Below are positions 10,434 through 33,927 of a stretch of 64,000 bases of DNA, in pieces. The stretch comes from Gemmatimonadota bacterium. GTDB lineage: Bacteria > Latescibacterota > UBA2968 > UBA8231. Under the pieces are notes generated by a model that was not told the DNA's origin, searched no databases, and saw only the letters and a list, made by a program, of their open reading frames with translations. The translations under genes were made by a program, and so were the position numbers. The stretch spans positions 1 through 64,000 of the forward strand of contig JABHFS010000146.1 of NCBI GenBank assembly GCA_018672475.1. The letters are read 5' to 3'. Every line of letters begins with the position of its first letter. Within the stretch, counting starts at the first letter, position 1.

Positions 10434-11333
10434 ATGAAGAAACTCGGTATTATTTTTGCCCTAGGTGCTATTTTGGTCGCTTCGTCGGCTGATGCGCATC
10501 AGGCGTCCTATTTTATGCCACAGGTTCCCCAGCCTGACAACATGGTTATCGACGGCAACGACGATGACTGGGGTTGGATTGACCCGGCTTTCGCTATCAA
10601 CCCGGACAACATGTTCGAGATTCTTGGTAGCGAGTGGCCGCCGGCCAAGGATGACTGGGACTGCATTCTCTATGTCGCATGGAGCTCGTCCCCAGATAAC
10701 TCGCTTTATTATTTCGCCCGCGTGACCGATGACTCTTTGGGCCTCTTCGTTGAGAACCCACAAGAGTATTGGAAGGACGATTCGCTGGAAATTATCGTTG
10801 ATGCCGATCACTCGAGCGAGAACTTCAACGAGACCGAAATGACCTCTGGCCAGCAGTATGGTATCCGCGTGTTGCCCGCCGCCGGTCAGAAGGACAGCTG
10901 GATCTTCAACGTTCCCCAGGAGAGCATCCTGTGGTCGACCGAAGAGCCTTTCTTCGTTTACGAGTGGACCTTGGATCCGCCGGACGCCAGGCCCCTCGAA
11001 CAGCCCGCCGGCTCGTCGGTTACCTATACCTACGAGGTCAAGCAGGCGTTGTGGACATTCCACGACAAGACCGGTCCTGATGGCAGCCAGCGTCACCTCT
11101 TCGGTCCCGACCAGATCATTGGTTTGACCTTCCAGTTCGACGAGACTGAGAATCCCGAGTTGGGTCGTGAGAAGCAGCCCGGCACCACGCCGGTGAACGG
11201 TGCTTTTCAGGACAACTCGAACGGTTCTGATTTCATCTCTGTTGAGACTGAAGGCGCCGATGGTGGTGGTGGTGGTGGCACCGCTGTTGAAGCTGATAGC
11301 TGGGGTCGCATCAAGAGCTACATAGCCCAATAG
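10434..11333 (+). CDS. Secreted CBM9-like protein, probably highly expressed
   Basis: A 299-residue exported protein. A signal peptide (MKKLGIIFALGAILVASSADA) is followed by a domain beginning near residue 38 with IDGNDDDWGW. That opening, the Trp-rich beta strands, the YYFARVTDDSL and WKDDSLEI motifs, and overall size match carbohydrate-binding module family 9-like (CBM9/DOMON-like) domains. Residues near 275-282 form a six-glycine linker, and the chain ends with a short amphipathic tail (SWGRIKSYIAQ) of unknown role. The ribosome site GGAGG (10422-10426) is 7 nt before ATG. Codons are strongly biased to GAC, AAC, AAG and CGT compared with neighbours, a sign of high expression. Likely an abundant cell-surface or periplasmic sugar-binding or structural protein. 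Confidence 0.75.
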   Translation: MKKLGIIFALGAILVASSADAHQASYFMPQVPQPDNMVIDGNDDDWGWIDPAFAINPDNMFEILGSEWPPAKDDWDCILYVAWSSSPDNSLYYFARVTDDSLGLFVENPQEYWKDDSLEIIVDADHSSENFNETEMTSGQQYGIRVLPAAGQKDSWIFNVPQESILWSTEEPFFVYEWTLDPPDARPLEQPAGSSVTYTYEVKQALWTFHDKTGPDGSQRHLFGPDQIIGLTFQFDETENPELGREKQPGTTPVNGAFQDNSNGSDFISVETEGADGGGGGGTAVEADSWGRIKSYIAQ

Positions 11334-11391: not shown

Positions 11392-11433
11392 TAGATAAAG
11401 AGAGATGGAGGAAACTTCATCTCTCTTTATCTA
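11392..11433 (+). terminator. Perfect 16-bp hairpin between secreted-protein genes
   Basis: The arms TAGATAAAGAGAGATG (11392-11407) and CATCTCTCTTTATCTA (11418-11433) are perfectly complementary around a 10-nt loop. The stem is AU-rich and lacks an immediate T run (a T5 run lies at 11444-11448). It may therefore be a terminator or a 3'-end-stabilising and processing structure for the abundant upstream mRNA rather than a textbook terminator. An in-frame ATG at 11405 lies in the stem, making it a poor start for the next gene. Confidence 0.6.
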
Positions 11434-11500
11434 TCACCAACGGCTTTTTATGAGCAAGGTATACGGCGAGGACGTGAGTTTTCATAGGAAGGCATTCTCG

Positions 11501-12247
11501 ATGAGGATACGGAAAATCGCTACTGGTGGGCTACTATTGGCCCTTTATCTGGTCACGCTTTCCGGGTGCATCTCCCAAGTGGGACTGCGGCGTTTTACAA
11601 CCCCCCCCCAACCGGCACTTGAGCAGAACGAGGGGATGACGGTCTTGGATGACGGCACTATTATATATACCAAAGACCGCCTTGAGATTTCTTTGCAGGT
11701 GCTTGAGGATGGTTTTCTAAATCGGCAATTTGCATCTGCATCTAACCAGGGAGCAAAATCCACCAATCCCTATACTTATGGCGATTGGACGCCATGGGGA
11801 CAAGAATGGACGCCTAGCCGCTTTACGGTAGTCCTGCTCAAGGTGAAGAATTACGAATTCCCCAAAGTCTTTATTAATCCGGATGCACTCACCATAACAT
11901 CGTCGAACGAACGCATTTACAATGTGCTTGATGAGGGCTTGCTCGAAGATTATTTCAGCCCCTACCTCAGAGCTTACGCTGGAATTCAGCGGCGACAGTT
12001 CGAAGCCATCACGGATCAATTGAGACGCACTGTTTATCCGCCCGATATGGTATTTAGCGGTCAAGAAGCAACGGGGTATATCGTTTTCCCCGTGCTGCAT
12101 AAAGACGTCGACAGCTTTAATGTCAATGTGACCGACATGGCCGTACGGTTCAACTATAAAGGCGAACCAGTAGAGACGATAGACTTAGAATTCAAACTTG
12201 AACGCGAAATTTATCTGGCACTTCATCCGCGTGAGGAGAACCGGTAA
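11501..12247 (+). CDS. Hypothetical lipoprotein with C9 tract
   Basis: A 248-residue lipoprotein of unknown function. The N-terminus MRIRKIATGGLLLALYLVTL leads to the lipobox LSGC with Cys23. The start at 11501 is preferred because AGGAAGG lies 8 nt upstream and it gives a proper lipoprotein signal; an earlier in-frame ATG at 11405 lies inside a hairpin. The mature part is beta-rich with repeated aromatic residues (TYGDWTPWGQEWTPSRF near residue 95). A run of nine C (11601-11609) encodes TTPPQ just after the lipobox. The stop TAA shares its last base with the ATG of the following gene, so the two are translationally coupled. Probably membrane-anchored, with a role linked to the FlgD-domain protein downstream. 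Confidence 0.75.
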   Translation: MRIRKIATGGLLLALYLVTLSGCISQVGLRRFTTPPQPALEQNEGMTVLDDGTIIYTKDRLEISLQVLEDGFLNRQFASASNQGAKSTNPYTYGDWTPWGQEWTPSRFTVVLLKVKNYEFPKVFINPDALTITSSNERIYNVLDEGLLEDYFSPYLRAYAGIQRRQFEAITDQLRRTVYPPDMVFSGQEATGYIVFPVLHKDVDSFNVNVTDMAVRFNYKGEPVETIDLEFKLEREIYLALHPREENR

Positions 12248-14208: not shown

Positions 14209-14286
14209 ATGCCCCGAACGAAGTACGCAATAGTGTCGAATCTGAATTACGATAACTATGAAAACCCTAAAAGGGAGGGTTCCATC

Positions 14287-16920
14287 GTGAGGTGTATGCT
14301 CCGCGCATTTCTTATTGCCATTGCAGGCGTCGTCCTCCTAAACGATGCCGTTTCTGCGCAGCGGGTCGGTTCACTCACCGGACGCGAGCCGCAGGGTGTC
14401 GATGTCTATGACATGGCCATGACCCCCGCACAGAGGAAGTGGCAGTACCCGCAAAGCTTATATCATTTCTACCAGTGGACCGGTGAGGAATATAGTAACT
14501 ACGCCCGTGAGAATTACGAGCGGTATGTCGCGACGGAGCTTGAGGGCTTTCGCACATATGACCTATACGGTAATTATATCACTCGCGGTTTCGAGGTATA
14601 TAACTGGTCTGTCAACAGCCCGGTGACTTCGGGTAGTCTCGTGCGCAAGGGACCTAAATATCGATCGTGGTTCAGTAGCCTTATTGTCTCTTCGATGGCC
14701 AAAGGCCAGTTTTACTCCTCGATGACGATTGGAGAGGCACTGCGTACGACTTTGACTCCGTTGACGTTTTCTAAGCCGGCGTTTAATGGCGTACAATGGG
14801 ATTTTGCCTCAGATAAGTATCAGATGACCATTTTAGCTTCACGCTTAGCCTCTCCGGGGACCGCAATTCAGTTTGAAAATTCGCTCGGTCAGGTTCTGGG
14901 CGATATGACGAATATGTTTGGCGTTCATTCTAAGGTTCAGTTAGGTGATTTCTCCAAGTTGGGTTTCACCTACTTGAATATTGCCAACTTCTCGACGGGG
15001 CGTAAGCTCGGTGATAACTCGCTTAACGGCGTGCTTACAGAAGCCCAAAACGGCGGGAATATCGAGACGATCGTGCTCAGGCTCTCTGATGATTCACCTG
15101 AAGACGGTCGTGGCGGTGCGCAACTCTTCGCCGAACGCATTATCATTAACGGAGTCGATCACCCCGAAATCGTGCCTTCGCCACGTGGCGGTGTTCGACG
15201 CGCGGGTGTGATTGAGGCCAATGGTGCAGAAACCTTAGAGTTGACCTATAACGTTGCACGTGATTTTCGGCAGCAGCCCGATGACCAGATTACAACCTTT
15301 CAAGAGATTAAGGAAATCGAGTTCGAGTTGGTGATCGCTAACGATTACCGAATAGAAATTACCTCAAATCTCCAGGTTAACGGTCAGGGCGAACCAGTGT
15401 TCCTTGATGTCGAACGTGCGCACGGCAATGTCAGCGATGGTTCGAACCAGCGGTTTATCCGTTTCGAATATGGTTTGCCGACCGGTAAGGATATTATTGG
15501 CCTGAACTTCGATATCGACGATATCAAAGGTTTTAACTTGCGTTCGGAAATCGCCCTTAGCCGGGGGTTCCGCCGCTTTCCAAACCAGAACTTCCAGAAG
15601 CATGAATTGGCTAAGGACGATGGTCTTGCCTATTACGTCACGGCCTCCCAAGATGCTTACCCATTCTTCGCTTATGGTGAACTTTATCGCTTAGAACCTG
15701 AATATCAGACCAATGCCTTCATTTCTGATGCTCGTGGATTTATCGATTACGAAAATCCGGAGCGCTATAGTTTTGAATCCGTTGACGACAACGATGACCA
15801 GGATCGTTTTGCCGATTGGAAGCGCTTGTGGCAGAACGGCGATTTTGCCTTTGGCGAATCGCCGTTTGGTACTGGTGGTCAGGCTGATCCGCAAGTTTTC
15901 CCCGGTTACGACGAAAACTCGGATTTCATTTCGGATTTCAACCAGAATGACAATGGTCAGCCTGATTTCTCCGAACCGTTTCTGCGCTACAGTGTCGATC
16001 CGCCGGAGTTCCTATTTGGCGTCGATATGAACAATAACAATGTCATAGACCGTTTTGAGAATGATACTTTTGCCGACTACCCCTACCGCAAAGATCGCGA
16101 CGGTTGGAATGCCTATGGTGGTGCTTTTCTCACCGAAGCGATTAAAGTAACGGTTGGTAGCTCAACGGCCGATGAAATTAGCTCAAAGCGTTCTGCCGAG
16201 ATGACGTACGCCGTTTTGACGGGCCAATGGAACTGGCCCGGTATCGAAGCAAAGGCCTTTCAATACGCTCGGTTTGTCAAAGACGATATCGAAGATGATG
16301 TCATCCAATGGGTTGATCCGGATGGTTTTCAGGAGGTGATCGATCCGTTGATCACCCAGGATACCTTTGTCTGGACCGGCTATATGACATTTGATTATTT
16401 ACGCTTTAAGAATTTGAATATCTACAATAAGGTGAAATACGACTGGTTCAAACAGCGTGGCAGTCAGGCAGATGTCAAAGATGATCGACTCTTCTTGGGG
16501 GTAATCAATAAGATCGATTACCCGTTGCCAATTACTGATAACCTGTCCTTCTGGCCTCGGTGGAAGGGAATATATCGCAAGGTCAATCCGACATTCAGCA
16601 CCGATCTTGATATTTCCGAGTGGTCGCAGTTTTATATGTTGACCTCCAAATACTTCATTCTGCCGACGACCTTTATTGAGTATGGTGTAGAATTCAACTT
16701 GTTCCGCAACCTGAATACACGTCCCGAGATTTTGCCTCCAGGTTATGTTGGCGATTTTACGGGCACCGTTTTAGCCCTGCAATTATCGAACCGTTCAGCA
16801 TATCTAGGTTACTCGCTTACTATGAATACAGGTTTTCGCTGGGAGCGTAAGGCCTTTGAAGAGGCGACCGAGACTAATTCGCTACTCTTCATTCGAGTCT
16901 TTGCTGGTCTGCAGAACTAA
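14287..16920 (+). CDS. Large outer-membrane-type protein with Ca-binding-like loops
   Basis: An 877-residue exported protein. GTG 14287 is preferred since GGGAGGG (14273-14279) is 7 nt upstream and it gives a clean signal peptide ending LLNDAVSA; ATG 14296 is an alternative, and an in-frame ATG at 14209 has no ribosome site. The N-terminal part carries an aromatic-rich repeat-like stretch. Near residues 530-610 there are Asp/Asn-rich loops (DENSDFISDFNQNDNG, DMNNNNVIDRFEND) like EF-hand or dockerin-type calcium sites. The C-terminal 300 residues alternate aromatic and polar residues as in a transmembrane beta-barrel, ending FIRVFAGLQN. I do not recognise a named family. It follows paralog 1 of the FlgD-domain proteins and ends at a strong terminator, so it may anchor or export its neighbours. 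Confidence 0.65.
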   Translation: MRCMLRAFLIAIAGVVLLNDAVSAQRVGSLTGREPQGVDVYDMAMTPAQRKWQYPQSLYHFYQWTGEEYSNYARENYERYVATELEGFRTYDLYGNYITRGFEVYNWSVNSPVTSGSLVRKGPKYRSWFSSLIVSSMAKGQFYSSMTIGEALRTTLTPLTFSKPAFNGVQWDFASDKYQMTILASRLASPGTAIQFENSLGQVLGDMTNMFGVHSKVQLGDFSKLGFTYLNIANFSTGRKLGDNSLNGVLTEAQNGGNIETIVLRLSDDSPEDGRGGAQLFAERIIINGVDHPEIVPSPRGGVRRAGVIEANGAETLELTYNVARDFRQQPDDQITTFQEIKEIEFELVIANDYRIEITSNLQVNGQGEPVFLDVERAHGNVSDGSNQRFIRFEYGLPTGKDIIGLNFDIDDIKGFNLRSEIALSRGFRRFPNQNFQKHELAKDDGLAYYVTASQDAYPFFAYGELYRLEPEYQTNAFISDARGFIDYENPERYSFESVDDNDDQDRFADWKRLWQNGDFAFGESPFGTGGQADPQVFPGYDENSDFISDFNQNDNGQPDFSEPFLRYSVDPPEFLFGVDMNNNNVIDRFENDTFADYPYRKDRDGWNAYGGAFLTEAIKVTVGSSTADEISSKRSAEMTYAVLTGQWNWPGIEAKAFQYARFVKDDIEDDVIQWVDPDGFQEVIDPLITQDTFVWTGYMTFDYLRFKNLNIYNKVKYDWFKQRGSQADVKDDRLFLGVINKIDYPLPITDNLSFWPRWKGIYRKVNPTFSTDLDISEWSQFYMLTSKYFILPTTFIEYGVEFNLFRNLNTRPEILPPGYVGDFTGTVLALQLSNRSAYLGYSLTMNTGFRWERKAFEEATETNSLLFIRVFAGLQN

Positions 16921-16952
16921 TTTCCATCTAGCGATTTCCCCAAGTTAAGAGA

Positions 16953-16987
16953 AGCGCCCGGCATTCCCTCTGGGAACGCCGGGCGCT
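16953..16987 (+). terminator. Terminator after the outer-membrane protein gene
   Basis: A 16-bp GC-rich stem with one mismatch (AGCGCCCGGCATTCCC, loop TCT, GGGAACGCCGGGCGCT) begins 33 nt after the stop codon. It is followed by CTTGCGTTGT rather than a long T run. It separates the 10.4-16.9 kb set from the TPR/UnbV operon. Confidence 0.7.
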
Positions 16988-17029
16988 CTTGCGTTGTGTA
17001 TCTACGATACACCCTTATTTTTAAATGAG

Positions 17030-18277
17030 ATGAATACTATTTCTTCAATGTTATTTACAGGGATATTGGCTTGCCTTTACTGTTGCTTATCGTGCGCGCC
17101 TGAAGAGCGCCATATCCTACAAGGGGGAGAAGCGGTTAAAACGGTAGAGCATTACCAGGATGCTCTCCGGGTAAACCCCAGTGATGTAGAGGCCTTATTC
17201 GGCTTGGGTTGGGTCTATTTACAGCAAGATCGAACGCGAGCTGCTGCCGGGGTATTTGCTCAATTAGTTGCAGCTGATTCCCGCAACGCTGATTCCCAAT
17301 ATTTATACGGAGTAGCCCTATCAAAGGAACAACGTAAAAACGAGGCTATGGCCGCGTTTCAACAAGCCTTACTGCTCGCACCGACATTTGTCGAAGTACA
17401 TTGGGCATTAGCTTTATTGCATAATGAGCGCGGTGACGGTTTTGCAGATGCACTCGGGATGATCGAGGAGGGCTTGCGTTTGGCTGAGGGTAGCAGTTAT
17501 GGTCATTTCGTGTTGGGTTTTGTGCTTTGCTCGCGAGGGGAGAACGAGAAGGCCGAACAGGCCTTGTTAAAGTCAATTGCGATCGATCCTTCGCTCGCCC
17601 ACACTCACTATTATCTGGCGTTGGTATATTTGCGCCAGAGGGATGATGTGCGGGCGATAGCGGCGATGGAAAAGACTATAGAGGCCGATCCAGGATATAC
17701 GGAGGCCTATTATAGTCTGGGAACGCTTTACGCGCGCACCGGGCGGGTGGATGAAGGTGAACAAATGATTGAACTCTTTCAGCAGCTAAGTCGTTCTACC
17801 ATGGATGAGGATCACTACCGCCGAATGTTGTATCGGCGAGAAGTTCCATTTGATAACGCCAAACGAGCCGGTAGCCACTTTAATCTGGGCCTTGTATATT
17901 TGCGTAGAGGTGAATTGCATACCGCGAAAAAACAATTTATGGAGGCGTTGCTTTTGGATTCGACTTATGCTGAAGCCAGCCACAATATAGGAGTGGTACA
18001 TTCATTGGAAGCCCGCCATGAAGAAGCCCAATTATACTTTGAAAAAGCGGTAAAGTGGAAGCCAGATTATGCTCTCGCACACAAGAATCTAGCGAATAAT
18101 CACCTTGTGCAAGGGGACTACCAAGCTGCAATAGAGGTTTTTCAACTTGCAATAGGATTAGATCCGAATATGGCAGAAGCCTATAATGGACTCGGCACTG
18201 CTTTAATTCAGCAAGGGGATATAAGTGAGGGGAAAGCGGCGAGAGCCCGGGCGATAGAATTGGGAACGGAAGATTAG
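17030..18277 (+). CDS. TPR lipoprotein, first gene of the UnbV operon
   Basis: A 415-residue lipoprotein. The signal MNTISSMLFTGILACLYCCLSC places the lipidated cysteine at residue 22. The start ATG 17030 (or 17048) is chosen because it gives this signal; in-frame TTG 16994 would add an unrelated stretch. The mature protein consists of about ten tetratricopeptide repeats, seen as recurring DPxxAEAYYxLGxxY units (for example EADPGYTEAYYSLGTLYAR near residue 235). TPR lipoproteins scaffold complexes at the inner face of the outer membrane. It directly abuts the next gene (stop 18277, ATG 18278) and is paralogous in build to the TPR lipoprotein at 21636 in the same operon. Confidence 0.8.
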   Translation: MNTISSMLFTGILACLYCCLSCAPEERHILQGGEAVKTVEHYQDALRVNPSDVEALFGLGWVYLQQDRTRAAAGVFAQLVAADSRNADSQYLYGVALSKEQRKNEAMAAFQQALLLAPTFVEVHWALALLHNERGDGFADALGMIEEGLRLAEGSSYGHFVLGFVLCSRGENEKAEQALLKSIAIDPSLAHTHYYLALVYLRQRDDVRAIAAMEKTIEADPGYTEAYYSLGTLYARTGRVDEGEQMIELFQQLSRSTMDEDHYRRMLYRREVPFDNAKRAGSHFNLGLVYLRRGELHTAKKQFMEALLLDSTYAEASHNIGVVHSLEARHEEAQLYFEKAVKWKPDYALAHKNLANNHLVQGDYQAAIEVFQLAIGLDPNMAEAYNGLGTALIQQGDISEGKAARARAIELGTED

Positions 18278-19990
18278 ATGAAACTGGTTTGCGGGCTGTT
18301 GTTGGGGATGCTAGGCTGTGGTAGTGCGCCGGATAATGTTGTCAGCCCACAACGGCCTATTTTTGTCGATGTGGGTTTACAGGCCGGTCTAACCATTCGT
18401 ACGGTATCCGGGACTCCAGAAAAAGAACATATCGTCGAATGTAATACGGGTGGGGCGGCACTTTTCGATTATGATTCAGACGGCGATCTCGATATTTTTA
18501 TCGTTAACGGATCTCGCATCGGAGGGTACGAACAGGGCCAAGAGCCTCGTGCCGCTCTATATCGCAATGATGGCGATTGGCACTTTAGCGAAGTTGGTGC
18601 GAGTGCTGGGGTAAATCACGCCGGTTGGGGGATGGGGGTCAGTGTTGTCGATTATAATGCGGACGGCAACCCAGACCTCTACTTGGCAAATTATGGGCCG
18701 AACGCCCTTTATCACAATCTGGGGGACGGCACGTTCGAAAATTTGGCGGCGCAGCTAGGAGTCGACTATTCGGGTTGGAGCTCTACCGGAGTTTTCGGCG
18801 ATTATGACCTCGATGGCGACCTCGATTTTTATCTGGCCAATTATATCGATTTTGACCCCGATTACCGCCCTTCTGATATGAGTTTCTGTAGTTGGCGTGG
18901 GATCGAGGTTTTTTATGGGCCTCGCGGCATGCCGGGGGAACAAGATCGGCTATATCGCAATGAGGGCGCTGCGGCTGGTTGGTCTTTCAAGGAGGCCAGC
19001 GAAGAATTTGGGATCCTTGACCACGATTATTACGGTTTTGCGGCCATGGCTGGGGATTGGGACGAGGATGGTGACCTCGATATATATATTGCCAACGATT
19101 CGACGCCGAATCTGTTCTACCGCAATGACGGAGGCGTCTTTCGTGATGTGTCGTTGATATCCGCAACGGCCTATAGCGAGGACGGCCGAGAACAGGGGGG
19201 GATGGGGCTTGCGAGTGGGGATTATGATGGCGACGGGGATATCGACCTTTTTGTCACTAATTTTTCGCACGACAACAATACGCTTTATGAAAACAACGGC
19301 CGGGGTTTTTTTACCGATACTAGTTTCAATTCTGCCCTGGGTAAGGAAAGTATCACCTCCCTAGGGTGGGGAACTGGTTTCCTAGATTATGACAACGATG
19401 GTGACGATGACCTTTTTGTCGCTAACGGACATGTCTATCCCGCAGTTGATCTCCACGATATCGGCACCAGCTATGTGCAGCGTAATCAGCTATTCGAAAA
19501 TGAAGGGTCCGGCTCCTTTACCGAAGTTGGTACGGTGCTTGGAGCGGGTATGCTGATCGAAAAATCTAGCCGTGGAGCGGCCTTCGGGGATTTGGACAAT
19601 GACGGAGATTTGGATGTCCTCGTCGTTAATATGGATGATACACCGACTTTATTGCGTAACGACGGAGGGAATCGACACAATTGGCTTATGGTTAAGCTGG
19701 TTGATAGCGGATCGAATGTAGATGCGATTGGCGCACGGGTCGTTGTGCGTCAAGCCGGACACACGCAAACGCGTGAGGTGCATTCGGGGACGGGATATAT
19801 ATCCCAAGACGATATACGTTTGCACTTTGGTCTTGGCAAGGCGGTCGAAGTTGAGCAACTAGATGTCCGCTGGCCGAATGGGGAAGTCGAAAGTCTGAGG
19901 GGGATCGCCGCGAATCGATTAATAACGATACGGCGCGGTGAGGGCATTGTAGCTGAAGGTTTCAATGCTGTAATAAGAGGGGCGCGGTGA
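18278..19990 (+). CDS. ASPIC/UnbV (CRTAC1-like) lipoprotein
   Basis: A 570-residue protein with a lipoprotein signal (MKLVCGLLLGMLGC, Cys14). The body holds many FG-GAP/VCBS-type repeats with calcium-binding loops of the form DYDxDGDxDxxxxN (for example DYDSDGDLDIFIVNGS near residue 63), typical of an integrin-like beta-propeller. The final 90 residues match the ASPIC/UnbV domain (AIGARVVVR ... LHFGLGKAVEVEQLDVRWPNG). The family resembles cartilage acidic protein CRTAC1; its bacterial function is unknown but it is extracytoplasmic. It starts immediately after the TPR gene, and its TGA overlaps the next GTG by 4 nt, so it is co-translated with a second UnbV protein. Confidence 0.88.
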   Translation: MKLVCGLLLGMLGCGSAPDNVVSPQRPIFVDVGLQAGLTIRTVSGTPEKEHIVECNTGGAALFDYDSDGDLDIFIVNGSRIGGYEQGQEPRAALYRNDGDWHFSEVGASAGVNHAGWGMGVSVVDYNADGNPDLYLANYGPNALYHNLGDGTFENLAAQLGVDYSGWSSTGVFGDYDLDGDLDFYLANYIDFDPDYRPSDMSFCSWRGIEVFYGPRGMPGEQDRLYRNEGAAAGWSFKEASEEFGILDHDYYGFAAMAGDWDEDGDLDIYIANDSTPNLFYRNDGGVFRDVSLISATAYSEDGREQGGMGLASGDYDGDGDIDLFVTNFSHDNNTLYENNGRGFFTDTSFNSALGKESITSLGWGTGFLDYDNDGDDDLFVANGHVYPAVDLHDIGTSYVQRNQLFENEGSGSFTEVGTVLGAGMLIEKSSRGAAFGDLDNDGDLDVLVVNMDDTPTLLRNDGGNRHNWLMVKLVDSGSNVDAIGARVVVRQAGHTQTREVHSGTGYISQDDIRLHFGLGKAVEVEQLDVRWPNGEVESLRGIAANRLITIRRGEGIVAEGFNAVIRGAR

Positions 19991-21639
19991 GACCTATTTG
20001 GGGGGGTGTTCTGTTGTCTTGTTTTTGCCTCGTCACTATGGCTGGGGCGGCTGGGCGTTTTGTTAATATCGCACAACAAGCAGGCATTGATTTTGAACAT
20101 CAAAGCGGAGCGGAGGGCCAACGTTATCTGCCCGAGACGTATGGTTCGGGGGTGGCGTTCATTGACGTCGACCGTGACGGGCTTATGGATGTCTACCTGG
20201 TAAATGCCGGACGGTTACCGCAGCTTGCAAATGTAAAAAAAGTGCGCAATTCACTTTATCACAACGAGGACGGTGGTCGATTCCGGGATCAGACCGAGGA
20301 GTTCGGAGTTGGCGATACGGGGTATGGAATGGGAGCGGTGGTCGGGGACTACGATAACGACGGATGGGCAGACCTTTATGTTACCAATTTTGGAGCGAAT
20401 GTGCTCTATCGAAATGGTGGCGAAGTCGGATTTGTCAATGTGACGAAAAACGCTGAAGTCGGGGATGAAGGGTGGAGCACTAGTGGAGCATTCGCCGATG
20501 TGGACCTCGACGGAGATTTAGATCTTTTTGTTGGCAATTACCTGGCCTACCCAACGGAAGACCCCACGGTTTGTCGAATCGGCAATAGCGAGGAACGACT
20601 ATACTGCGATCCACGCAAGTTCTCCGGTCAAGTCGATCGTCTGTATATCAACAAGGGCGGCGTGGCCGATTGGAGGTTTGACGACCGAACGGAGGCTTTT
20701 GGCCTTAAGAGTGTCAAAGGGAAGGAGTTGGGGGTTGTCTTTGGCGATTGCGACGAGGACGGAGATCTCGATCTATATCTAGCCAACGATATGGCGCCGA
20801 ATATGCTCTATCGCAACGATGGTGATCGATTTGTCGAAAAGGGGCTAGCTAGCGGTACGAGTTTGAACGACGAGGGGGGAGTTGAAGCCGGAATGGGCGT
20901 CGATATGGCCGATGCGGATGGTGATGGCCGCTTGGACCTTTTTGTGACCAATTTTCAGTGGGAGAGCAATACGCTCTACCGGAATTTGGGACAAGGCTTC
21001 TTTTTTGATGCGACCATTTCGTCAGGGATAACGAAAGTGAGTATGGCCTATTTAGGGTTCGGCACAGGTTTCTTTGATTATGATCGAGACGGTGATCTAG
21101 ATCTGTTCATCGCCAATGGCCATGTCTATGACAATATTGAAAAAGTGGATAAGGCCGCTAGCTACCGCCAGCGCAATCAATTGCTCGAAAACAACGGCAA
21201 GGGCGGATTCATTGAGGCAGAGAATAGCGGGTCCGGTCTGGCATTGCAACAAGTCAGTCGTGGCACTGCCTTTGCCGATATAGATAACGATGGCGATCTG
21301 GATATCGCGGTGAATAATTCCAACGATAAACCAGCGCTCCTGCGCAATGATTCAGGCTCGGATGGAGACTGGTTGGGTTTGCTGTTGCATGGCAACAAAA
21401 GCAACCGCGACGCGATTGGCGCACGGGTTGCAGTGCGGACGGCGGACCGGGTTATGGTACGAGAAGTTCGTCGTAATGCCAGTTATCTTTCGGCCAGCGA
21501 CCCGCGCTTGATTTTTGGTTTGTTGGAGAATGAGGTTGTTGCGCAAGTTGAAATCCGTTGGCCCTCGGGGATCGTGCAGGTATTGCATGACGCTCCAGGC
21601 GGCAAATACCTGGTGATAGAGGAGGGCATAGACCGGTGA
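19987..21639 (+). CDS. ASPIC/UnbV (CRTAC1-like) secreted protein
   Basis: A 550-residue paralog of the preceding UnbV lipoprotein with the same order: signal peptide (MRPIWGGVLLSCFCLVTMAGA), a beta-propeller of DxDxDGxxDLxxxN repeats, and a C-terminal ASPIC/UnbV domain (AIGARVAVR near residue 475, VEIRWPSGIVQV near 520). The signal appears to end in a type I cleavage site rather than a lipobox, so this copy may be soluble in the periplasm or exported while its partner is lipid-anchored. GTG 19987 overlaps the upstream stop, and its own TGA overlaps the next GTG (GTGA). A G7 tract lies near the start, at 20000-20006. Confidence 0.88.
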   Translation: MRPIWGGVLLSCFCLVTMAGAAGRFVNIAQQAGIDFEHQSGAEGQRYLPETYGSGVAFIDVDRDGLMDVYLVNAGRLPQLANVKKVRNSLYHNEDGGRFRDQTEEFGVGDTGYGMGAVVGDYDNDGWADLYVTNFGANVLYRNGGEVGFVNVTKNAEVGDEGWSTSGAFADVDLDGDLDLFVGNYLAYPTEDPTVCRIGNSEERLYCDPRKFSGQVDRLYINKGGVADWRFDDRTEAFGLKSVKGKELGVVFGDCDEDGDLDLYLANDMAPNMLYRNDGDRFVEKGLASGTSLNDEGGVEAGMGVDMADADGDGRLDLFVTNFQWESNTLYRNLGQGFFFDATISSGITKVSMAYLGFGTGFFDYDRDGDLDLFIANGHVYDNIEKVDKAASYRQRNQLLENNGKGGFIEAENSGSGLALQQVSRGTAFADIDNDGDLDIAVNNSNDKPALLRNDSGSDGDWLGLLLHGNKSNRDAIGARVAVRTADRVMVREVRRNASYLSASDPRLIFGLLENEVVAQVEIRWPSGIVQVLHDAPGGKYLVIEEGIDR

Positions 21640-23054
21640 TAAAAATGGTCAAATACATAGTAGGTACAGCACTTCTTATGGTGTTGGCCTGCGAATCGGA
21701 GCGTACTGTGGATGTTGCCAAACCTGGGGGGCAAGCCTTGCCGAAGGTGCAACCCGCGCAGGAATTACTGGAAGATCCGCGGTTAATTGGCCGAGCATTA
21801 TTACAACAAAAACGTTATGTCGATGCGCTGGAAGCTTATGAAGAAGCTCGGAAGCGCCACCCACAATCGGGAGAGGTGCTCGCGACGATTGGCAGAATTC
21901 AACTAGCCCTCGGAGACCTCGAGGAGGCAACTAAACTCTATGAGATGGCGGTTGCCCTCGAAGCGGACAAACCCGAACTGCAAGTCGCGCTTGGTAACGT
22001 GCACCTGAAACTGAATCGCTACGACGAGGCGCACGCCGCATTTAAAGGCGCTCTGGCGATCGATTCGACCTATGCGCCAGCTCGTCGGAATCTGGCCGCG
22101 GTCTACAGTAAGCAGGGGCGCTTTGGTGAAGCCGCTCGTGAATACGAACTTGCCTTGCAATTAAGACCGGAGCATTTGCGTACTCGTTTTAACCTAGCCC
22201 TGGTCTACGCTGGCTTGGGAAGGTATGAAGAATCTCGCAAGGAATTGGAACGGGTCTTGGCGGAAGAACCGCAAAATGCCCGTGCGTTATATGCATTGGG
22301 AGAAGCCACTCTCAAAGAGGGCAATAATGAAGAGGCCAGCGAGTATTTTACGCGCACTCTGGCCGCTGATACGACCTATGCCCAGGCGCATGTGCAACTT
22401 GGGCGGATGTTAATGCACCAAAACGATCTTGTTGCCGCCGCGGGGCGATTTCGCCGGGCGATTTTACTCGAACCAGGCATTGCTGAATCATTTCGCCTGT
22501 TGGGGCAGATTCACTTGCGACAGGGACGGGAGAGCGCCGGCGAAAAATCTTTAGAGGCTTACGAGAAGGTCAAGTTGGCCGAGAAAGATGTCGAACTCTA
22601 TCACGAGCGCTTGCGCAATGATCCGGATGATGCTGAGGCTTATTATAGTTTGGGTGTTATTTACACCCGCCTCGGGTTTACCGGGGCGGCTTTGCCACAA
22701 TATGTTCAGGCAGTCCAGATTAACCCCGGTCACGTTCAAGCTTTGAACAATATGGGAAATATCTATTTCCGCGGCGGTTATCTAGCACAGGCCGAGGCGG
22801 CCTACAGCCAGATAATCGAGAAGGATACCGAGTATACAGCAGCAGTTGCCGCGCTGGGACAGGTCTATTTAAGCCAACAGCGCACCGATGAAGCGATAAC
22901 CATGCTTAATCGTGCGTTGGCATTAGAGGAGTCCTGGTTGGGAGCACACCAGGCGCTGACTGAGGCCTATAAGCGCCAGGGGCAGATTGCCAAGAGCGAA
23001 GACCATAAACGCATTGCAAATGAATTGATTGCCAGCAGAAAGAAGGAAGAATGA
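21636..23054 (+). CDS. TPR lipoprotein, fourth gene of the UnbV operon
   Basis: A 472-residue lipoprotein (MIKMVKYIVGTALLMVLAC, Cys19) made almost entirely of tetratricopeptide repeats, about eleven by eye (for example YYSLGVIYTRLGFTGAALPQ near residue 334). The start GTG 21636 overlaps the previous stop; ATG 21645 is an alternative that still gives a lipoprotein signal. It mirrors the TPR lipoprotein that opens the operon, so the two UnbV proteins are bracketed by two TPR scaffolds. Its TGA overlaps the next ATG (ATGA), coupling it to a PpiC-type chaperone. Confidence 0.83.
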   Translation: MIKMVKYIVGTALLMVLACESERTVDVAKPGGQALPKVQPAQELLEDPRLIGRALLQQKRYVDALEAYEEARKRHPQSGEVLATIGRIQLALGDLEEATKLYEMAVALEADKPELQVALGNVHLKLNRYDEAHAAFKGALAIDSTYAPARRNLAAVYSKQGRFGEAAREYELALQLRPEHLRTRFNLALVYAGLGRYEESRKELERVLAEEPQNARALYALGEATLKEGNNEEASEYFTRTLAADTTYAQAHVQLGRMLMHQNDLVAAAGRFRRAILLEPGIAESFRLLGQIHLRQGRESAGEKSLEAYEKVKLAEKDVELYHERLRNDPDDAEAYYSLGVIYTRLGFTGAALPQYVQAVQINPGHVQALNNMGNIYFRGGYLAQAEAAYSQIIEKDTEYTAAVAALGQVYLSQQRTDEAITMLNRALALEESWLGAHQALTEAYKRQGQIAKSEDHKRIANELIASRKKEE

Positions 23055-24814
23055 AACGGATAGCGAAAGACCTATGGCGGGCAGAGTTTATCCTTGTTGC
23101 TTGTGCTTGTATCGGTCTTGCTGGGTGTGCCGCAGAACAGCCGGACGAGTTAAATCCTTGGGGTGGGTTAAAGGTCGAAGGGACGGCATTGGCAAAAGTG
23201 GGACAAGGTGAAATTGACGAGCGGGAATTTCGTCGTTATGAAGCCAATATCCAGACCCAGCACCGCTCGCCGAATGAGGGGGTGGAAAAGTATCGAGAGC
23301 ATCTGTTGACGCTAATCGACATTAAGTTGATGGTGCGTGAAGCAGAAGAACGCGGACTCGATAAGAGCCCCGAATTGGCCAACGCGCTCGAACGCACTGA
23401 GCACAAGGCGATGGTCGAAGCCTTCATGCAGGAAAGAATAGGGCTAAACATCGAGATCACCGAAGCCGAATTGCGGGCAACTTTTGATGCGCACCCGGCC
23501 CGTTATGCCGTGTTGGGGGCGCACATTCTGCTCCGAGACCGCGCCCAGGCGGATTCCGTCCATAGCGAAATCGAGCAAGGGCGGGCGACTTTTGAAGAAA
23601 TGGCTCGTAAGCACTCTCTTGATGAAAATACCGCGAAAGAAGGCGGAGTCTTTAAAACGTATTATGCTTATGATCGCGTTTCAGATGCAATATACAAGCA
23701 AGTGTTCTCGTTGGACGTCGGTAAAGTGAGTGAACCTTTTCGCTCTCCGCAAGGCTGGGAAGTGGCCAAGGTTGTCGATAAGAAACTGGTGCCCTTTGAA
23801 AAATACCGCACGGTTATTCAGCGGGTGACCTTTCTGAAGAAATTAGAAGAATTAAAGCGTTCCCATATCGCAGAATTAGTCGAGAAGAGTAACCTGCGGC
23901 CGGTAGTAGAGAATTTATATCGTTTTATCGCGGCGTGGAATGAAAATCCGGGCAGCCCTAAATTGACACCAGAAGAATTGGCAAAACCTCTTTACACCTA
24001 TGAAGATGGAATGATTAGCCTGCAACAGGTAAGTTATCTATTGCACAATATACGATTGGGCCATGTGCAAGTGGATAGCACCTTAATCGAGGATAAAGTG
24101 CGCAACAGAGGGGCATCCGACCTGCTTTTGGGTATCGCAGCAAAAGAAGCGGGCCTTGACGCTCGGCCCATTGTGCAGGAGCAAGTTAAAGCTGAAAGAG
24201 AGCGGTTATTAGTAGAGGGCTTATGGGATGAATTGCTTGAAATACAGTTGGAAATTAACGAAGTAGAGGCCCGTACGCATTACGACGCTCATCCTGAGAT
24301 GTACAAAATACCCGAAGAAATCATTATTCAAGAAATTATGGTTGCCGATATTGACCGGGCAAATTCGCTCTTAAATGAGGTGCGCGCAGGGGCGGATATG
24401 GCCGACTTGGCAACCCGGCACAGTATTAGACGATATTCGGACGAAAATGGTGGTCTCTATGCTATGCGATCCTTTGAAAGAATTGTTTACAATGAAGTTA
24501 TGGATGCTGCGGTCAAGGCACCGGACAACGAATTGCAAGGGCCAATAGAGCTCGTAAAACCCATGCCATCTGCATTGCGGGATCAGCTAGTCTTAGATCG
24601 GGCTTTTTCAATTTTCAAGGTATTGCAACGGTTGCCCGAAAGGGTCCAGACTTTTGAATTGAGCCAACGGAAAGCCGAGTTTTTTGCCCGGCAGGAAAAA
24701 CAACAGGATCAATTGCAGAAACTCAATCTCGAATTGCGCCGAAAATATAATAAAGATTGGGGCATTAATGACCGAGCATTAGAAGAATATGCCGAAGTCT
24801 TAAGCATTCGTTGA
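23051..24814 (+). CDS. PpiC/SurA-like peptidyl-prolyl isomerase lipoprotein
   Basis: A 587-residue lipoprotein (lipobox GLAGC, Cys26) with a SurA/PrsA-type plan. An N-terminal chaperone helix region is followed by a parvulin-like domain near residues 155-240 (YAVLGAHILLRDRAQADSV, then FEEMARKHSLDENTAKEGG). A second, more divergent parvulin-like domain lies near 415-500 (IQEIMVADIDRANSLLNEV, RRYSDENGG). Such proteins fold exported and outer-membrane proteins and isomerise prolyl bonds. As the last gene of a coupled operon with two TPR lipoproteins and two UnbV proteins, it is the likely dedicated foldase for those products (inference). Confidence 0.82.
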   Translation: MKRIAKDLWRAEFILVACACIGLAGCAAEQPDELNPWGGLKVEGTALAKVGQGEIDEREFRRYEANIQTQHRSPNEGVEKYREHLLTLIDIKLMVREAEERGLDKSPELANALERTEHKAMVEAFMQERIGLNIEITEAELRATFDAHPARYAVLGAHILLRDRAQADSVHSEIEQGRATFEEMARKHSLDENTAKEGGVFKTYYAYDRVSDAIYKQVFSLDVGKVSEPFRSPQGWEVAKVVDKKLVPFEKYRTVIQRVTFLKKLEELKRSHIAELVEKSNLRPVVENLYRFIAAWNENPGSPKLTPEELAKPLYTYEDGMISLQQVSYLLHNIRLGHVQVDSTLIEDKVRNRGASDLLLGIAAKEAGLDARPIVQEQVKAERERLLVEGLWDELLEIQLEINEVEARTHYDAHPEMYKIPEEIIIQEIMVADIDRANSLLNEVRAGADMADLATRHSIRRYSDENGGLYAMRSFERIVYNEVMDAAVKAPDNELQGPIELVKPMPSALRDQLVLDRAFSIFKVLQRLPERVQTFELSQRKAEFFARQEKQQDQLQKLNLELRRKYNKDWGINDRALEEYAEVLSIR

Positions 24815-29640: not shown

Positions 29641-31524
29641 ATGACTGTAGCCCCAGGGGTCTACCGCGGCCAGCAATGGATCATATCGCCTTTCAGCGAC
29701 TTGTTTTTCTTTATTGGCACGCCCCTATTGTGCCTGGTGACGATGTTGCCGTTGCGGGAGTTTGTCGATTCGCAAACTATCGCCTTCTACGCTTTAGCGC
29801 TCTTTGCTACGGGGCACCATTTGCCTGGGTTTATGCGCGCTTATGGCGATCCGGAACTGTTTAGCACATTCAAAGAGAAATTTGTAATTGCTCCCGTCGT
29901 GGTATTGTTCGTTACCGCGTTGGCGCAGTTTAATACATTGCACGGGCTTTTTTTTATGGTGCTGGTCTGGGAAGTTTGGCACCTTTTTATGCAACATTAT
30001 GGTATCATGCGGATCTACGATGCCAAGAACAAGATTTTTTCTAGGCTCAACGCCCGGCTCGATTGGGCAATGACCTTGTGTGCCTTTGTCACGGTGGTTA
30101 TCTACAGCCCCGAATATTTCCATCGGATCCTCGACCACAATCAAAGAGTCGGTCTGCCGTTTCCCTCCGTCGAGTTGACCTTTTTCCTTAAAGAGCTGCT
30201 CTTTTATTTTACGATGACGGTGTTTGCCGCCTATCTGGCAAACCTCGTGCATCGAACGGTCACCGGACAGAAGATCAGTCTGCCGAAAATGGCGGTGATG
30301 GCCACTACGGTTTTTATCATCTATTATGGTTGGATCCACATAAACGACTTGGTCATCGGTTATGCCGCCTTCGCGGTTTTTCACGACATCCAATATTTTG
30401 CCATAGTTTGGGTCTACAATAACAATCTGGTCAAAAGGCAGGAGCGTACCACCAAGGTCTTGCGCACATTTTTCACGACGCGGACGCTGCCGATATTAGC
30501 GGCCTATATGCTCGTTTCTTTCGCCTATGGCAGTATCAATATGATGGAGGGCTTTCTCAAGTCCGAACAGGCGATTAACGTCATTGAGATCTTTGTGATA
30601 ACCTCAACGATTCTGCACTATTATTTTGACGGTTTCATATGGAAAATGAAAGACCGTAAGAACCAGGCTAATTTGGGGATTAAAGCAGAAGATGGAACCA
30701 AACACATCGGAGCGCGCTCTATTCAATCCCGATTGTTTCGGTTTAGCAGCTACTTCCGCGAAACAGGGCGGCAACTCGCTTATTTTGCCCTGCCTGTCGC
30801 GGCTTTGGCGCTTTTTCAGTTTTACTGGACGGCTGACGAAGCCGATGCCCGCGAGAAGATGGTCGAATTGTTTCCCGACCTGGCAGGGGCGCATAATAAT
30901 TTGGGAGTCTTCTACTCGCGCTTGGGTGATTGGGATAAGGCTTCGGGCGAATACCGTAGGGCACTTGAACTCGATGAAGGGGCTTATGAGGCTCATAAGA
31001 ATCTCGGGCTGCTCTATGCGCAACAGGGCTTGCTCGATGAGGCGCACGCGCATTATCAGCAGGCCATAGACAACAAGCCAGAATACGTCGAAGCGCTAAA
31101 TTCCCAAGGCCTGGTTTTTATGCAACGCGGGCAGGTTGATAAAGCTCAACAGCGTTTTATGGAGGCTCTTGCTGAATTTGAATACGCACCGGCCTATAAT
31201 AACCTCGGCACCGCTTATCTCAGGGATAAGAACTATATGGCGGCGATTCGGGCGTATAAGAAGGCTATTGCATTAGACCGTAATAATGCTACGCATCACT
31301 TCAACTTGGGTCTGGCTTTTCAGAAAGCCGTCCAGAACGAAGGGGCAGTGCAGGCCTTTGACCAAGCCATTGCCTTGCAGTCGTCCTACGCGAAGGCCTA
31401 TTTGAGCATGGCCTTATCCTATCAACGGATGGGTAATCTGCCGGCGGCAAGACAATCTTTACAGCGTCTGTTGCAGGTCGAACCGGAAAACGCAACCGCC
31501 GCCCGTTTACTGTCGCGACTGTAA
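29641..31524 (+). CDS. His-rich polytopic membrane protein fused to TPRs
   Basis: A 627-residue protein. The first 400 residues form about nine membrane segments with histidines at membrane borders: GHHLPGF (near 58-64), WHLFMQHYGIMRIYD (near 112-126), FHDIQYF (near 248-254) and HYYFDGFIW (near 327-335). Several His-Asp clusters of this kind occur in membrane di-metal enzymes, but I cannot place it in a named family. After a final hydrophobic segment (about 385-397) the C-terminal 210 residues are six TPRs (AHNNLGVFYSRLGDWDKAS onward). The start ATG 29641 has no strong ribosome site. It is convergent with the UnbV lipoprotein gene, 13 nt apart. Function unknown; an enzyme tethered to a scaffold is one possibility. 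Confidence 0.7.
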   Translation: MTVAPGVYRGQQWIISPFSDLFFFIGTPLLCLVTMLPLREFVDSQTIAFYALALFATGHHLPGFMRAYGDPELFSTFKEKFVIAPVVVLFVTALAQFNTLHGLFFMVLVWEVWHLFMQHYGIMRIYDAKNKIFSRLNARLDWAMTLCAFVTVVIYSPEYFHRILDHNQRVGLPFPSVELTFFLKELLFYFTMTVFAAYLANLVHRTVTGQKISLPKMAVMATTVFIIYYGWIHINDLVIGYAAFAVFHDIQYFAIVWVYNNNLVKRQERTTKVLRTFFTTRTLPILAAYMLVSFAYGSINMMEGFLKSEQAINVIEIFVITSTILHYYFDGFIWKMKDRKNQANLGIKAEDGTKHIGARSIQSRLFRFSSYFRETGRQLAYFALPVAALALFQFYWTADEADAREKMVELFPDLAGAHNNLGVFYSRLGDWDKASGEYRRALELDEGAYEAHKNLGLLYAQQGLLDEAHAHYQQAIDNKPEYVEALNSQGLVFMQRGQVDKAQQRFMEALAEFEYAPAYNNLGTAYLRDKNYMAAIRAYKKAIALDRNNATHHFNLGLAFQKAVQNEGAVQAFDQAIALQSSYAKAYLSMALSYQRMGNLPAARQSLQRLLQVEPENATAARLLSRL

Positions 31525-31537
31525 AAGTCGTTGATCG

Positions 31538-33730
31538 TCAATGTGGGTGTATTTTTTCCTTGGAGCGACGCAAAGAGATTTTTCGCATATCGGCCAAGCG
31601 TAGATCCGCGGCGTCTTCTTCGACAATATACTTTTGATCCATCGCTACGTTCGTAAAGTTTTGCACGACACCCGATGGCCAGCGGATCACCAGTTCCTCG
31701 ATTGCTTCGGCGTTACCTAAACCGATTTCTTGTTGCAGGGTCGAGGCCCCAAAACTAGCCCCGCTACCGGTTTGGCTATGTATAATCCGTCTTGTGGTTG
31801 CCGTTTGCGTGATCACTTCTATGCGCGCTCCGAATCCAGCGCGATTCGATTGCACGCCCCTTAGTTGCAGGGTAAGCCAGTGGTTGCCGTGACCGGGGTT
31901 TTCAAAGAGTACATTGGTGAACACGTCGCCGGAATAGGCACCACCGATAACGGCGTAAATATCCTGGTCACCATCGTTGTCCAAGTCGCCGAAGGCTACG
32001 CCATGCCCTTTTTGCAGGTGGCCAACTCCTCCGGAAGCCGTGACATCCTCGAAAAAATCACCCCCGTTATTGCGAAACATCCGATTCGGCATTAACGAGC
32101 GATAATCGGGGTCACCCGTGCCAGCGTAAAAGTCGAGCCAGCCGTCATTGTCCAGGTCCCCGTAATTGCACCCCATCGTATAAAGCACCTTGTTACTGCG
32201 GGTTTGCGTGGCGAGATTGCTAAAGGTGCCGTCGCCTAAATTTCGATAGAGGCGCGGCGGTTCGCCCTTGTGCGGTATGCCCAGATAGTCCGCGGCAACA
32301 TCACCGGCGTCGGCTTTATATCCCGAGACAAAGAGATCCAGCCAACCGTCGTTGTCGTAGTCCCAAAACCACACGGGAAAGCTAAAGACGGGCTGGCTGA
32401 CCCCTGCGTGTTGGGTGATATCGGTGAAGTGCCATTGTCCGTTGGGGCCGGGGCCGTCGTTGTGGAAGAGTAGGTTCGCTTCGCCGAGGCGAGATATGTA
32501 CAGATCGGGAAGCCGGTCATTGTCGATGTCGCCCCAGGCAACGCCTTTAATGAAACCTATAACATCAAGGCCGGTAGCGGCGGCAATATCGGTGAACGTG
32601 CCGTCGCCATTGTTGCGAAAAAGTTCACAGGGGTGGTTTTGTTGCGGTGACGATTCATTGCCGATAAAGAGGTCGAGGTGTCCGTCGTTGTCGTAGTCGG
32701 CCCAAGCGGCGGTCTGCGTCGGGTGCAAGGAGAGTAAGCCGGACTCTTCGGTGATGTCGGCAAATGTGCCGTCCCCTTGGTTGCGCAGAAGAGAATTGGG
32801 ATGCAGGCCGTCGGCACCGAACCAACCGCCGCGCAACACAAGCACATCGACAAAGCCGTCATTGTCGTAGTCGGCCTGATTGACATTGAGGCCACCGACG
32901 ATACCAGTTAAACCGGCTTTGCTCGTATATTCGGCGAAACGGCCGTCGCCCTGGTTGTGGAAATAGCGCAAAGGGTCGCTCAAGCCCCAAGATGAGGCGA
33001 TAATATCCTGAAGACCATCGTTGTCGAAGTCCTCCATAATACTACCCCCAGCAAGGCCTAGTGCGTCCAAGCCCAGGTCGGGTGCCCGGTCGGTGAAGCG
33101 GCCGATCTCATAGTCGGCTGCAAAGGCAGCGGGGGGAATTAGCCATTGTTCGGGCACTTTATGGGGATATTCGCCTAGGGTCATATAAGCAATGTTGAGT
33201 AACCAGCGCGAGGTTAGATCGAAGGGACTTTTACGTAAAACCTCGCTATAGAAATGGATCGCCGAGCGTGAACCAGCCTGGTCTTTATGCACGCCGGCAG
33301 CCTCTATGGGCAATAAACAAGACGCCAGATTGTGGTTGTCCAGACAGTTTTTTTGTTCGCCTAGGCGCAAGTAGGAAAGGGCGAGCATTTCTTCAAGGCT
33401 GGGGCGGGTACGCAGCCGGTTTGCCCCGGCTTGGCCGCGAACGGTCTGGAACAGATCCGCGGCAGCCGCGGATTCGCCGGCTTGCAATAACTCTTTGGCC
33501 AATTCGATCTGCTGGCTAAGCTTTAGCACTGCACTTTTTGCCGGAGGCCGTTTTCGCAGCCAGGCGACTCGATGGGCGCTGAGATAGATATTTTCTTCTG
33601 GGTTTATTCCATCTACCAATTGGGCTAGGCGTTGGGCCATGCGCTTGGTCCCAGGTGCCTGATAAGGCTCGCTAGTACAACCTGAGTGAGCTAAGGCAGA
33701 TAGAATAAGGATGAAGAGTATCATATACAT
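31538..33730 (-). CDS. ASPIC/UnbV (CRTAC1-like) lipoprotein with N-terminal extension
   Basis: A 730-residue lipoprotein (MYMILFILILSALAHSGC, Cys18). ATG 33730 (or 33724) is preferred; a longer frame back to 33856 would run through a minus-strand terminator at 33761-33785. Residues 20-210 form a helical region. FG-GAP/VCBS repeats follow with DxDNDGxxDxxxxN loops (for example DFDNDGLQDIIASS near 240), and the ASPIC/UnbV domain is at the C-terminus (RAGFGARIEVI near 630, LVIRWPSGVVQNF near 685). This third UnbV gene is on the opposite strand from the operon pair at 18278-21639 and seems monocistronic. Confidence 0.85.
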   Translation of the reverse strand: MYMILFILILSALAHSGCTSEPYQAPGTKRMAQRLAQLVDGINPEENIYLSAHRVAWLRKRPPAKSAVLKLSQQIELAKELLQAGESAAAADLFQTVRGQAGANRLRTRPSLEEMLALSYLRLGEQKNCLDNHNLASCLLPIEAAGVHKDQAGSRSAIHFYSEVLRKSPFDLTSRWLLNIAYMTLGEYPHKVPEQWLIPPAAFAADYEIGRFTDRAPDLGLDALGLAGGSIMEDFDNDGLQDIIASSWGLSDPLRYFHNQGDGRFAEYTSKAGLTGIVGGLNVNQADYDNDGFVDVLVLRGGWFGADGLHPNSLLRNQGDGTFADITEESGLLSLHPTQTAAWADYDNDGHLDLFIGNESSPQQNHPCELFRNNGDGTFTDIAAATGLDVIGFIKGVAWGDIDNDRLPDLYISRLGEANLLFHNDGPGPNGQWHFTDITQHAGVSQPVFSFPVWFWDYDNDGWLDLFVSGYKADAGDVAADYLGIPHKGEPPRLYRNLGDGTFSNLATQTRSNKVLYTMGCNYGDLDNDGWLDFYAGTGDPDYRSLMPNRMFRNNGGDFFEDVTASGGVGHLQKGHGVAFGDLDNDGDQDIYAVIGGAYSGDVFTNVLFENPGHGNHWLTLQLRGVQSNRAGFGARIEVITQTATTRRIIHSQTGSGASFGASTLQQEIGLGNAEAIEELVIRWPSGVVQNFTNVAMDQKYIVEEDAADLRLADMRKISLRRSKEKIHPH

Positions 33731-33760
33731 ATAGCTTAAGATCGAAAAATGCAGTATAAA

Positions 33761-33785
33761 AGAAAACCCCCTGTTGCTAGGGGGT
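33761..33785 (-). terminator. Rho-independent terminator downstream of miaB
   Basis: Read on the minus strand: ACCCCC, loop TAGCAACA, GGGGGT, then TTTCTTTTAT. It lies about 140 nt after the miaB stop and before the start of the UnbV lipoprotein gene at 33730, so the mtaB-miaB transcript probably ends here. Confidence 0.7.
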
Positions 33786-33927
33786 ATAAACAGACGAATG
33801 CGAATTTTAATATAAAGGAGCCCGCTTTTGGGTTGTTGCAAAAACAACGCAGACAAGTAATAGACTTAAGACTGTAACCGCCGCACCGCCAATGGTGGCA
33901 CTTGCTTGGTGGGGTGGTTGGGGGCTG

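Follow-up and report, generated by a model that had tools for sequence, protein, structure and literature searches.

The window, by which we mean the whole 64,000-nucleotide stretch of DNA analysed, lies on a contig of 154 kb, part of the draft genome (6.6 Mb) of an uncultured marine bacterium of the Latescibacterota. At its centre of interest, five genes on the same strand encode a TPR lipoprotein, two UnbV proteins, a second TPR lipoprotein and a parvulin of the PpiC type (Table 1; T, U, U, T and P in gene orders below). In the initial annotation these genes were linked through an abutting start and three overlaps of 4 nt; the open reading frames were confirmed at exactly those positions: TPR1 and UnbV-A abut (TAG directly followed by ATG), and overlaps of 4 nt link UnbV-A to UnbV-B (GTG start), UnbV-B to TPR2 (GTG) and TPR2 to P (ATG). 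Some gene starts are uncertain, and for TPR1 an in-frame TTG at 16994 is a possible alternative. The domain series TPR, UnbV, UnbV, TPR, PpiC was also borne out by Pfam, with TPR matches in both TPR1 and TPR2 and two Rotamase stretches in P. The same holds for the four lipoprotein signals and the plain signal peptide of the third product, which were called by a simple pattern and by eye, not by SignalP; lipobox cysteines are present in TPR1, UnbV-A, TPR2 and P, and UnbV-B has the plain signal peptide. The same set of signals recurs at the six orthologous loci inspected, some of them recognised by eye because the simple pattern overlooked them or gave an ambiguous result.

Table 1. Features of the locus, with positions in the window
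Feature	Position	Strand	Description
D	10434..11333	+	Secreted protein of about 299 aa; weak match, CBM9-like (DOMON-type), to a carbohydrate-binding domain
Q	11405..12247	+	Lipoprotein, 280 aa, without a Pfam family; found repeatedly next to C, B and P genes
C1	12247..14208	+	Secreted; CHU_C/FlgD-like C-terminal domain, type IX cargo-like
B	14209..16920	+	Predicted outer-membrane beta-barrel, about 26 strands, inserted beta-sandwich
Two stable hairpins	16949..17012	+	Between B and TPR1; the second one is followed by CCTTATTTTT
TPR1	17030..18277	+	TPR lipoprotein, 415 aa; ATG start
UnbV-A	18278..19990	+	Lipoprotein, 570 aa; FG-GAP propeller and UnbV_ASPIC
UnbV-B	19987..21639	+	Signal peptide, 550 aa; FG-GAP propeller and UnbV_ASPIC; CRTAC1 relative
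TPR2	21636..23054	+	TPR lipoprotein, 472 aa; GTG start
P (PpiC)	23051..24814	+	Lipoprotein, 587 aa; two parvulin (PpiC-type) domains; ATG start
C2	24973..27018	+	Secreted; FlgD/CHU_C-like C-terminal domain
C3	27025..29457	+	Secreted; F5/8-type-C (discoidin-like) domain and FlgD/CHU_C-like C-terminal domain

The five-gene unit has no clear edges. The stop codon of B lies 109 nt 5' of TPR1, and C-type genes begin 158 nt past the end of P. The two hairpins between B and TPR1 (MFE -42.3 kcal/mol, z -5.15) may split the C-B and TUUTP transcripts; the second is terminator-like (16996-17012), lies about 18 nt ahead of the TPR1 start and is possibly an attenuator. Further upstream, D scores 26.5 bits against Pfam CBM9_1 (cut-off 23.4), and its 16 relatives among the open reading frames of the compared loci make it a recurrent neighbour of C-B-P loci. 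The opposite strand at 7937-9874 encodes a DUF6785/DUF6784 multi-pass membrane protein, relatives of which recur near UnbV, P and C genes at several loci. Two adjoining, overlapping MiaB-type genes (UPF0004 and radical SAM) occupy 33928-36629, also on the minus strand.

Overlaps of 4 nt are common in bacterial operons and, alone, signify just an operon. The present operon goes beyond chance because its order and coupling are conserved in other genomes, with pairwise dN/dS of 0.08-0.16 for the five genes. An orthologous parvulin gene (more than 900 bits) was found in 13 of the 64 genomes of the phylum compared, that is, in 10 of the 11 genomes of the genus (G008 being the exception) and, outside it, in G016, G022 and, as two copies, G020; the match in G061 is weaker, at 353 bits. 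All of these genomes are drafts or metagenome assemblies, with an estimated contamination of 2-10% in the family. T-U-U-T-P, with genes that abut or overlap at the junctions, is seen in the window and in G001, G002, G003, G004, G006, G007, G010, G016 and G022, and the order is partly readable, with contig ends intervening, in G005, G009 and G020. The initial annotation would have been refuted by an order confined to the source genome, and the order is not so confined: eight genomes of the genus have it, and so do other genera of its family (G016, G020 and G022), every one of them within the Latescibacterota. When GTDB contigs were scanned with an alignment of the parvulin, whose peptide patterns reach close relatives only and which says nothing on more distant groups, 13 loci emerged; they are assigned to Latescibacterota, Latescibacteria or Gemmatimonadetes/Gemmatimonadota where a group is named, and one of the 13 is labelled only 'uncultured bacterium'. 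For B, pairwise dN/dS is 0.04-0.08, and the five genes and B are under purifying selection. A chance arrangement is ruled out by the conserved order together with these ratios, and a curiosity of one genome by the same order in others. A description of the C-B-TUUTP-C-C locus was not found in our search of the open-access literature. The phylum has sponge-associated members (PMC12993501).

The conservation extends beyond the five genes. The flanks, C-B upstream and C-C downstream, are kept wherever the contig reaches them; in loci that extend so far, orthologues of C1 lie upstream of B, and those of C2 directly downstream of P. Two natural variants are informative. The second copy in G020 reads T-U-T-P, without UnbV-A, beside B and three C genes, and G051, from another family of the same phylum, has C-B-U-T-P as a minimal form, with a B protein that is 47% identical to that of the window over 904 aligned positions. 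Because of these two versions, we regard C-B-U-T-P as the core, to which an extra T-U is added in the window locus.

Their Pfam scores place UnbV-A and UnbV-B in the UnbV_ASPIC/CRTAC1 family (UnbV_ASPIC, 79.1 and 62.5 bits, cut-off 23.4; FG-GAP_3, 177 and 143 bits). Each carries seven calcium-type DxDxDG motifs, one per blade, and both are predicted to form Ca2+-type propellers. UnbV-B matches murine CRTAC1 with an E value of 1e-15, and an EGF-like domain was not detected in either protein. As in CRTAC1 and other ASPIC/UnbV proteins (PF07593; 9etn), an FG-GAP propeller is followed by the UnbV_ASPIC domain. However, the window proteins are bacterial, one of them is lipidated, and they are encoded in an operon with TPR lipoproteins; their cellular role need not match that of CRTAC1. 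In the literature searched, ASPIC/UnbV proteins of Poribacteria and Solibacter appear only as domain counts or in paralogue lists, and an assigned role for bacterial UnbV/CRTAC1-like proteins was not found.

UnbV-A and UnbV-B are 44% identical to each other, and their settings elsewhere differ: the nearest paralogues of UnbV-B sit in U-T(-P) modules, whereas those of UnbV-A mostly do not. For this reason we take the operon to consist of a T-U module and a U-T-P module placed end to end. Two UnbV proteins bracketed by TPR scaffolds, as first described, is correct as to order, but the two modules are the better reading.

UnbV loci number 37 in the source genome and about 50 in each of two single-contig congeners. 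In one congener (G004), pairing of UnbV with TPR is a rule across the genome: a TPR2-like segment lies no more than 2.5 kb away from 29 of the 53 UnbV genes, where 2.2 would be expected. Judged by strand and spacing, 26 of the 53 either sit close beside a TPR gene or carry the label 'fused', which takes in a few proteins with a possibly partial TPR match. Many members of the family also have unambiguous fusions of UnbV and TPR, lipoproteins about 1,030-1,140 aa in length. This repeated pairing, together with the natural fusions, argues for a physical partnership between UnbV and TPR proteins. The same evidence, with the conserved gene order, bears on whether the operon is simply one of convenience, in which unrelated envelope proteins are co-expressed and form no complex. 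TPR and FG-GAP repeat proteins are indeed very abundant in these genomes, but in view of the pairing statistics, the fusions and the order we consider such an operon highly unlikely. Elsewhere in the window, 31538-33856 on the opposite strand encodes a third UnbV protein of 772 aa with a longer N-terminal region, and 29641-31524 on the plus strand encodes a multi-pass, His-rich membrane N-domain (without a Pfam match) followed by a TPR C-domain; a homologue of this N-domain (about 350 aa) follows P in the U-T-P operons of the loci L085, L144 and L145.

A structure model of one fusion comprises a CRTAC1-like propeller and a TPR superhelix, and it matches 9etn (CRTAC1) with a TM score of 0.73 by target length. 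The pTM of 0.54 does not settle how the two domains lie with respect to each other, and the predicted contacts to which the initial annotation had looked for support did not emerge. That annotation proposed a defined envelope complex. The conserved operon and the UnbV-TPR pairing and fusions speak for some such assembly, although not for one of just these five products, since the conserved unit is larger, a minimal C-B-U-T-P exists, and P is found after the barrel no less often than after UnbV. Strict coupling, conserved order and a shared lipidation pattern are what one would expect of a complex of exactly five proteins, but with UnbV-A missing from one natural copy, a three-gene U-T-P beside C-B in another genome and a fusion model without confident contacts, we consider that composition improbable.

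P scores 80 bits against PF00639 (Rotamase) in two stretches, carries an export signal with a lipobox, and has HP0175, PrsA and SurA as its best solved relatives. In domain 1, the His at the first catalytic position is kept in six of seven orthologues, and every one of the seven has Glu in place of the second. Domain 2 has lost both His residues in each of the seven, and nearly all P paralogues share this loss; an intact catalytic His pair is absent from both domains. Because the catalytic His residues are lost, the sequence favours a chaperone rather than an isomerase. P had been called a SurA-like foldase, and the parvulin domains are there, but the catalytic His residues have mostly gone and the score against the SurA equivalog NF008038 is 36 bits, with a cut-off of 394; the PrsA equivalogs of NCBIfam give at most 61 bits, with cut-offs of 343 or more. 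Judged by these scores, P is in the parvulin superfamily and is neither SurA nor PrsA. It resembles the SurA, PrsA and PpiD foldases as a signal-bearing protein with parvulin domains, and PrsA in its lipid anchor, but differs from them in having two degenerate parvulin domains with replaced catalytic His residues. Furthermore, where a housekeeping chaperone would be single, a genome has about 25 paralogues of P, each linked to a particular locus.

In the two single-contig congeners, P has a B gene no more than 7 kb away in 19 of 31 and 14 of 28 cases (2.5 and 2.1 expected), and a UnbV gene at that distance in 12 of 31 and 14 of 28 (3.0 and 2.7 expected); the expectations are from circular shifts and the P-values are approximate. 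The association of the parvulin with the outer-membrane barrel is thus no less frequent than that with UnbV. Many UnbV genes have no B close to them, with only 11 of 53 and 7 of 49 at 7 kb or less from one. One possible explanation of these associations is that U-T-P is a stand-alone module, in which P is the cognate foldase of UnbV and its TPR partner, and C-B is only a frequent neighbour. P is near UnbV well above chance, a divergent P gene often adjoins the UnbV-TPR fusions, and triads without B close by occur at five loci (L085, L144, L145, L153 and L154). However, within 8 kb, 12 P genes of G004 have B but no UnbV and four the converse; in G006 these numbers are seven and six, and the focal family always keeps the C-B flank where the contig reaches. 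We therefore regard a stand-alone module as rather unlikely.

The B protein has no Pfam or NCBIfam match. In its AlphaFold2 model (mean pLDDT 71, pTM 0.68) the barrel is made up of about 26 strands, with a beta-sandwich inserted, and the Foldseek and VIA matches are mainly outer-membrane barrels from several unrelated membrane-barrel families; in VIA the top hits are beta-barrel channels (Z up to 14, rmsd 5-12 A). B is thus predicted to be a closed transmembrane outer-membrane beta-barrel, a clear assignment as to fold class, with generic barrel matches only. It was rejected as SprA, since TIGR04189 matches only one locus in the genome, on another contig (C49). Each single-contig genome has 40-odd B genes. 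Multiplicity of this kind is also a feature of SusCD-type polysaccharide utilisation loci, an analogous case in which many paralogous loci encode an outer-membrane barrel and surface proteins with binding domains. However, SusC, SusD, a TonB plug or a glycoside hydrolase was not found among the window genes scanned, and the locus is not a member of that group.

C1 scores 45.6 bits against Pfam CHU_C (cut-off 27) and 27.9 against TIGR04131, below the cut-off of 35. C2 and C3 reach the curated cut-offs for the C-terminal-domain (CTD) families or fall slightly short of them, C2 having 26.9 bits against FlgD_ig with a cut-off of 27. The genome encodes SprA (469 bits, or 600 with its neighbour; cut-off 200) and a full-length PorU on contig C163 (637 bits; cut-off 420), and for this reason the C proteins are plausible cargo of type IX secretion. 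Many matches to the PorU C-terminal domain are present in the genome, and a second PorU-like sortase segment (G000:C89:11529-12962), distinct from the PorU on C163, lies in a frame of 1817 aa and is below the family cut-off. PorW/SprE was considered and rejected as an identity for TPR1 and TPR2; TPR2 has 35 bits against NF052312, the cut-off of which is 250, and a PorW/SprE-like candidate on contig C45 scores better, still below threshold. The type IX secretion literature searched does not name Latescibacterota.

The type IX translocon of Flavobacterium contains a peptidyl-prolyl isomerase (PPI) subunit with no known function and the TPR lipoprotein SprE (PMC10994853). The extended translocon described there (SprA, PorV, PPI, SprE and SkpA) resembles the present locus in combining an outer-membrane barrel, a TPR lipoprotein, a PPI-type subunit and CTD cargo (PMC10994853). 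It might be, then, that the locus is an accessory type IX translocon, with the TPR lipoproteins and P corresponding to SprE and PPI, and B serving as the outer-membrane port or carrier for C cargo. B, C, a TPR lipoprotein and a parvulin do travel together, and the composition has its parallel in Flavobacterium. However, B is about 900 aa long and was not detected as a SprA homologue, the SprA and PorU of this genome and the sub-threshold PorW/SprE-like protein lie elsewhere, and UnbV would be left unexplained; the passages of PMC10994853 on the translocon name no UnbV propellers among its components. An accessory translocon is thus very unlikely, and we take the Flavobacterium translocon as a parallel in composition, not as evidence of membership.

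The explanation that we tentatively favour, with a probability approaching one half, is that the five genes are the centre of an outer-membrane surface locus, C-B-[T-U]-[U-T-P]-C-C, with docked UnbV proteins and P as a chaperone. B would sit in the outer membrane as a beta-barrel, and the C proteins, as probable type IX cargo, would be exported and end on the cell surface. Each Ca2+-stabilised UnbV propeller would dock on its partner TPR lipoprotein, so that UnbV-B with TPR2 and UnbV-A with TPR1 may form two lipid-anchored units beside the barrel. P would be a dedicated chaperone, similar to SurA and PrsA and not a true isomerase, that keeps the beta-rich clients of the locus, chiefly B and the propellers, folding-competent. 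Because neighbours carry discoidin-like (C3) and CBM9-like (D) domains, we propose that the assembled locus probably binds or takes up extracellular material. The physical complex, the side of the membrane, the clients of the chaperone, the export of the cargo and the ligand are all points that we infer. Against this explanation stand the fusion model, in which the two domains are not confidently placed, the many UnbV genes with no B close to them, the borderline scores of C2 and C3 for the CTD families, and the hairpins, by which the transcripts may be separated. A further proposal, which we think quite unlikely, is that B, the isomerase-dead parvulin and the TPR lipoproteins form a substrate-dedicated outer-membrane port or loading platform for the propellers and CTD proteins. 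If so, such a port would have been duplicated dozens of times per Latescibacterota genome, beside a canonical SprA translocon, and bacterial UnbV/CRTAC1 proteins would be surface subunits held by TPR lipoproteins.

The B genes, of which the window member is without a family match, represent a large family of outer-membrane barrels in uncultured bacteria. UnbV/CRTAC1-like proteins are numerous in bacteria, and here they have a consistent partner, the TPR lipoproteins, to which they are sometimes fused. The fixed setting of UnbV in this locus, with an outer-membrane barrel, probable type IX cargo and a degenerate parvulin, is kept in the phylum and offers concrete pairs of proteins that can be tested.
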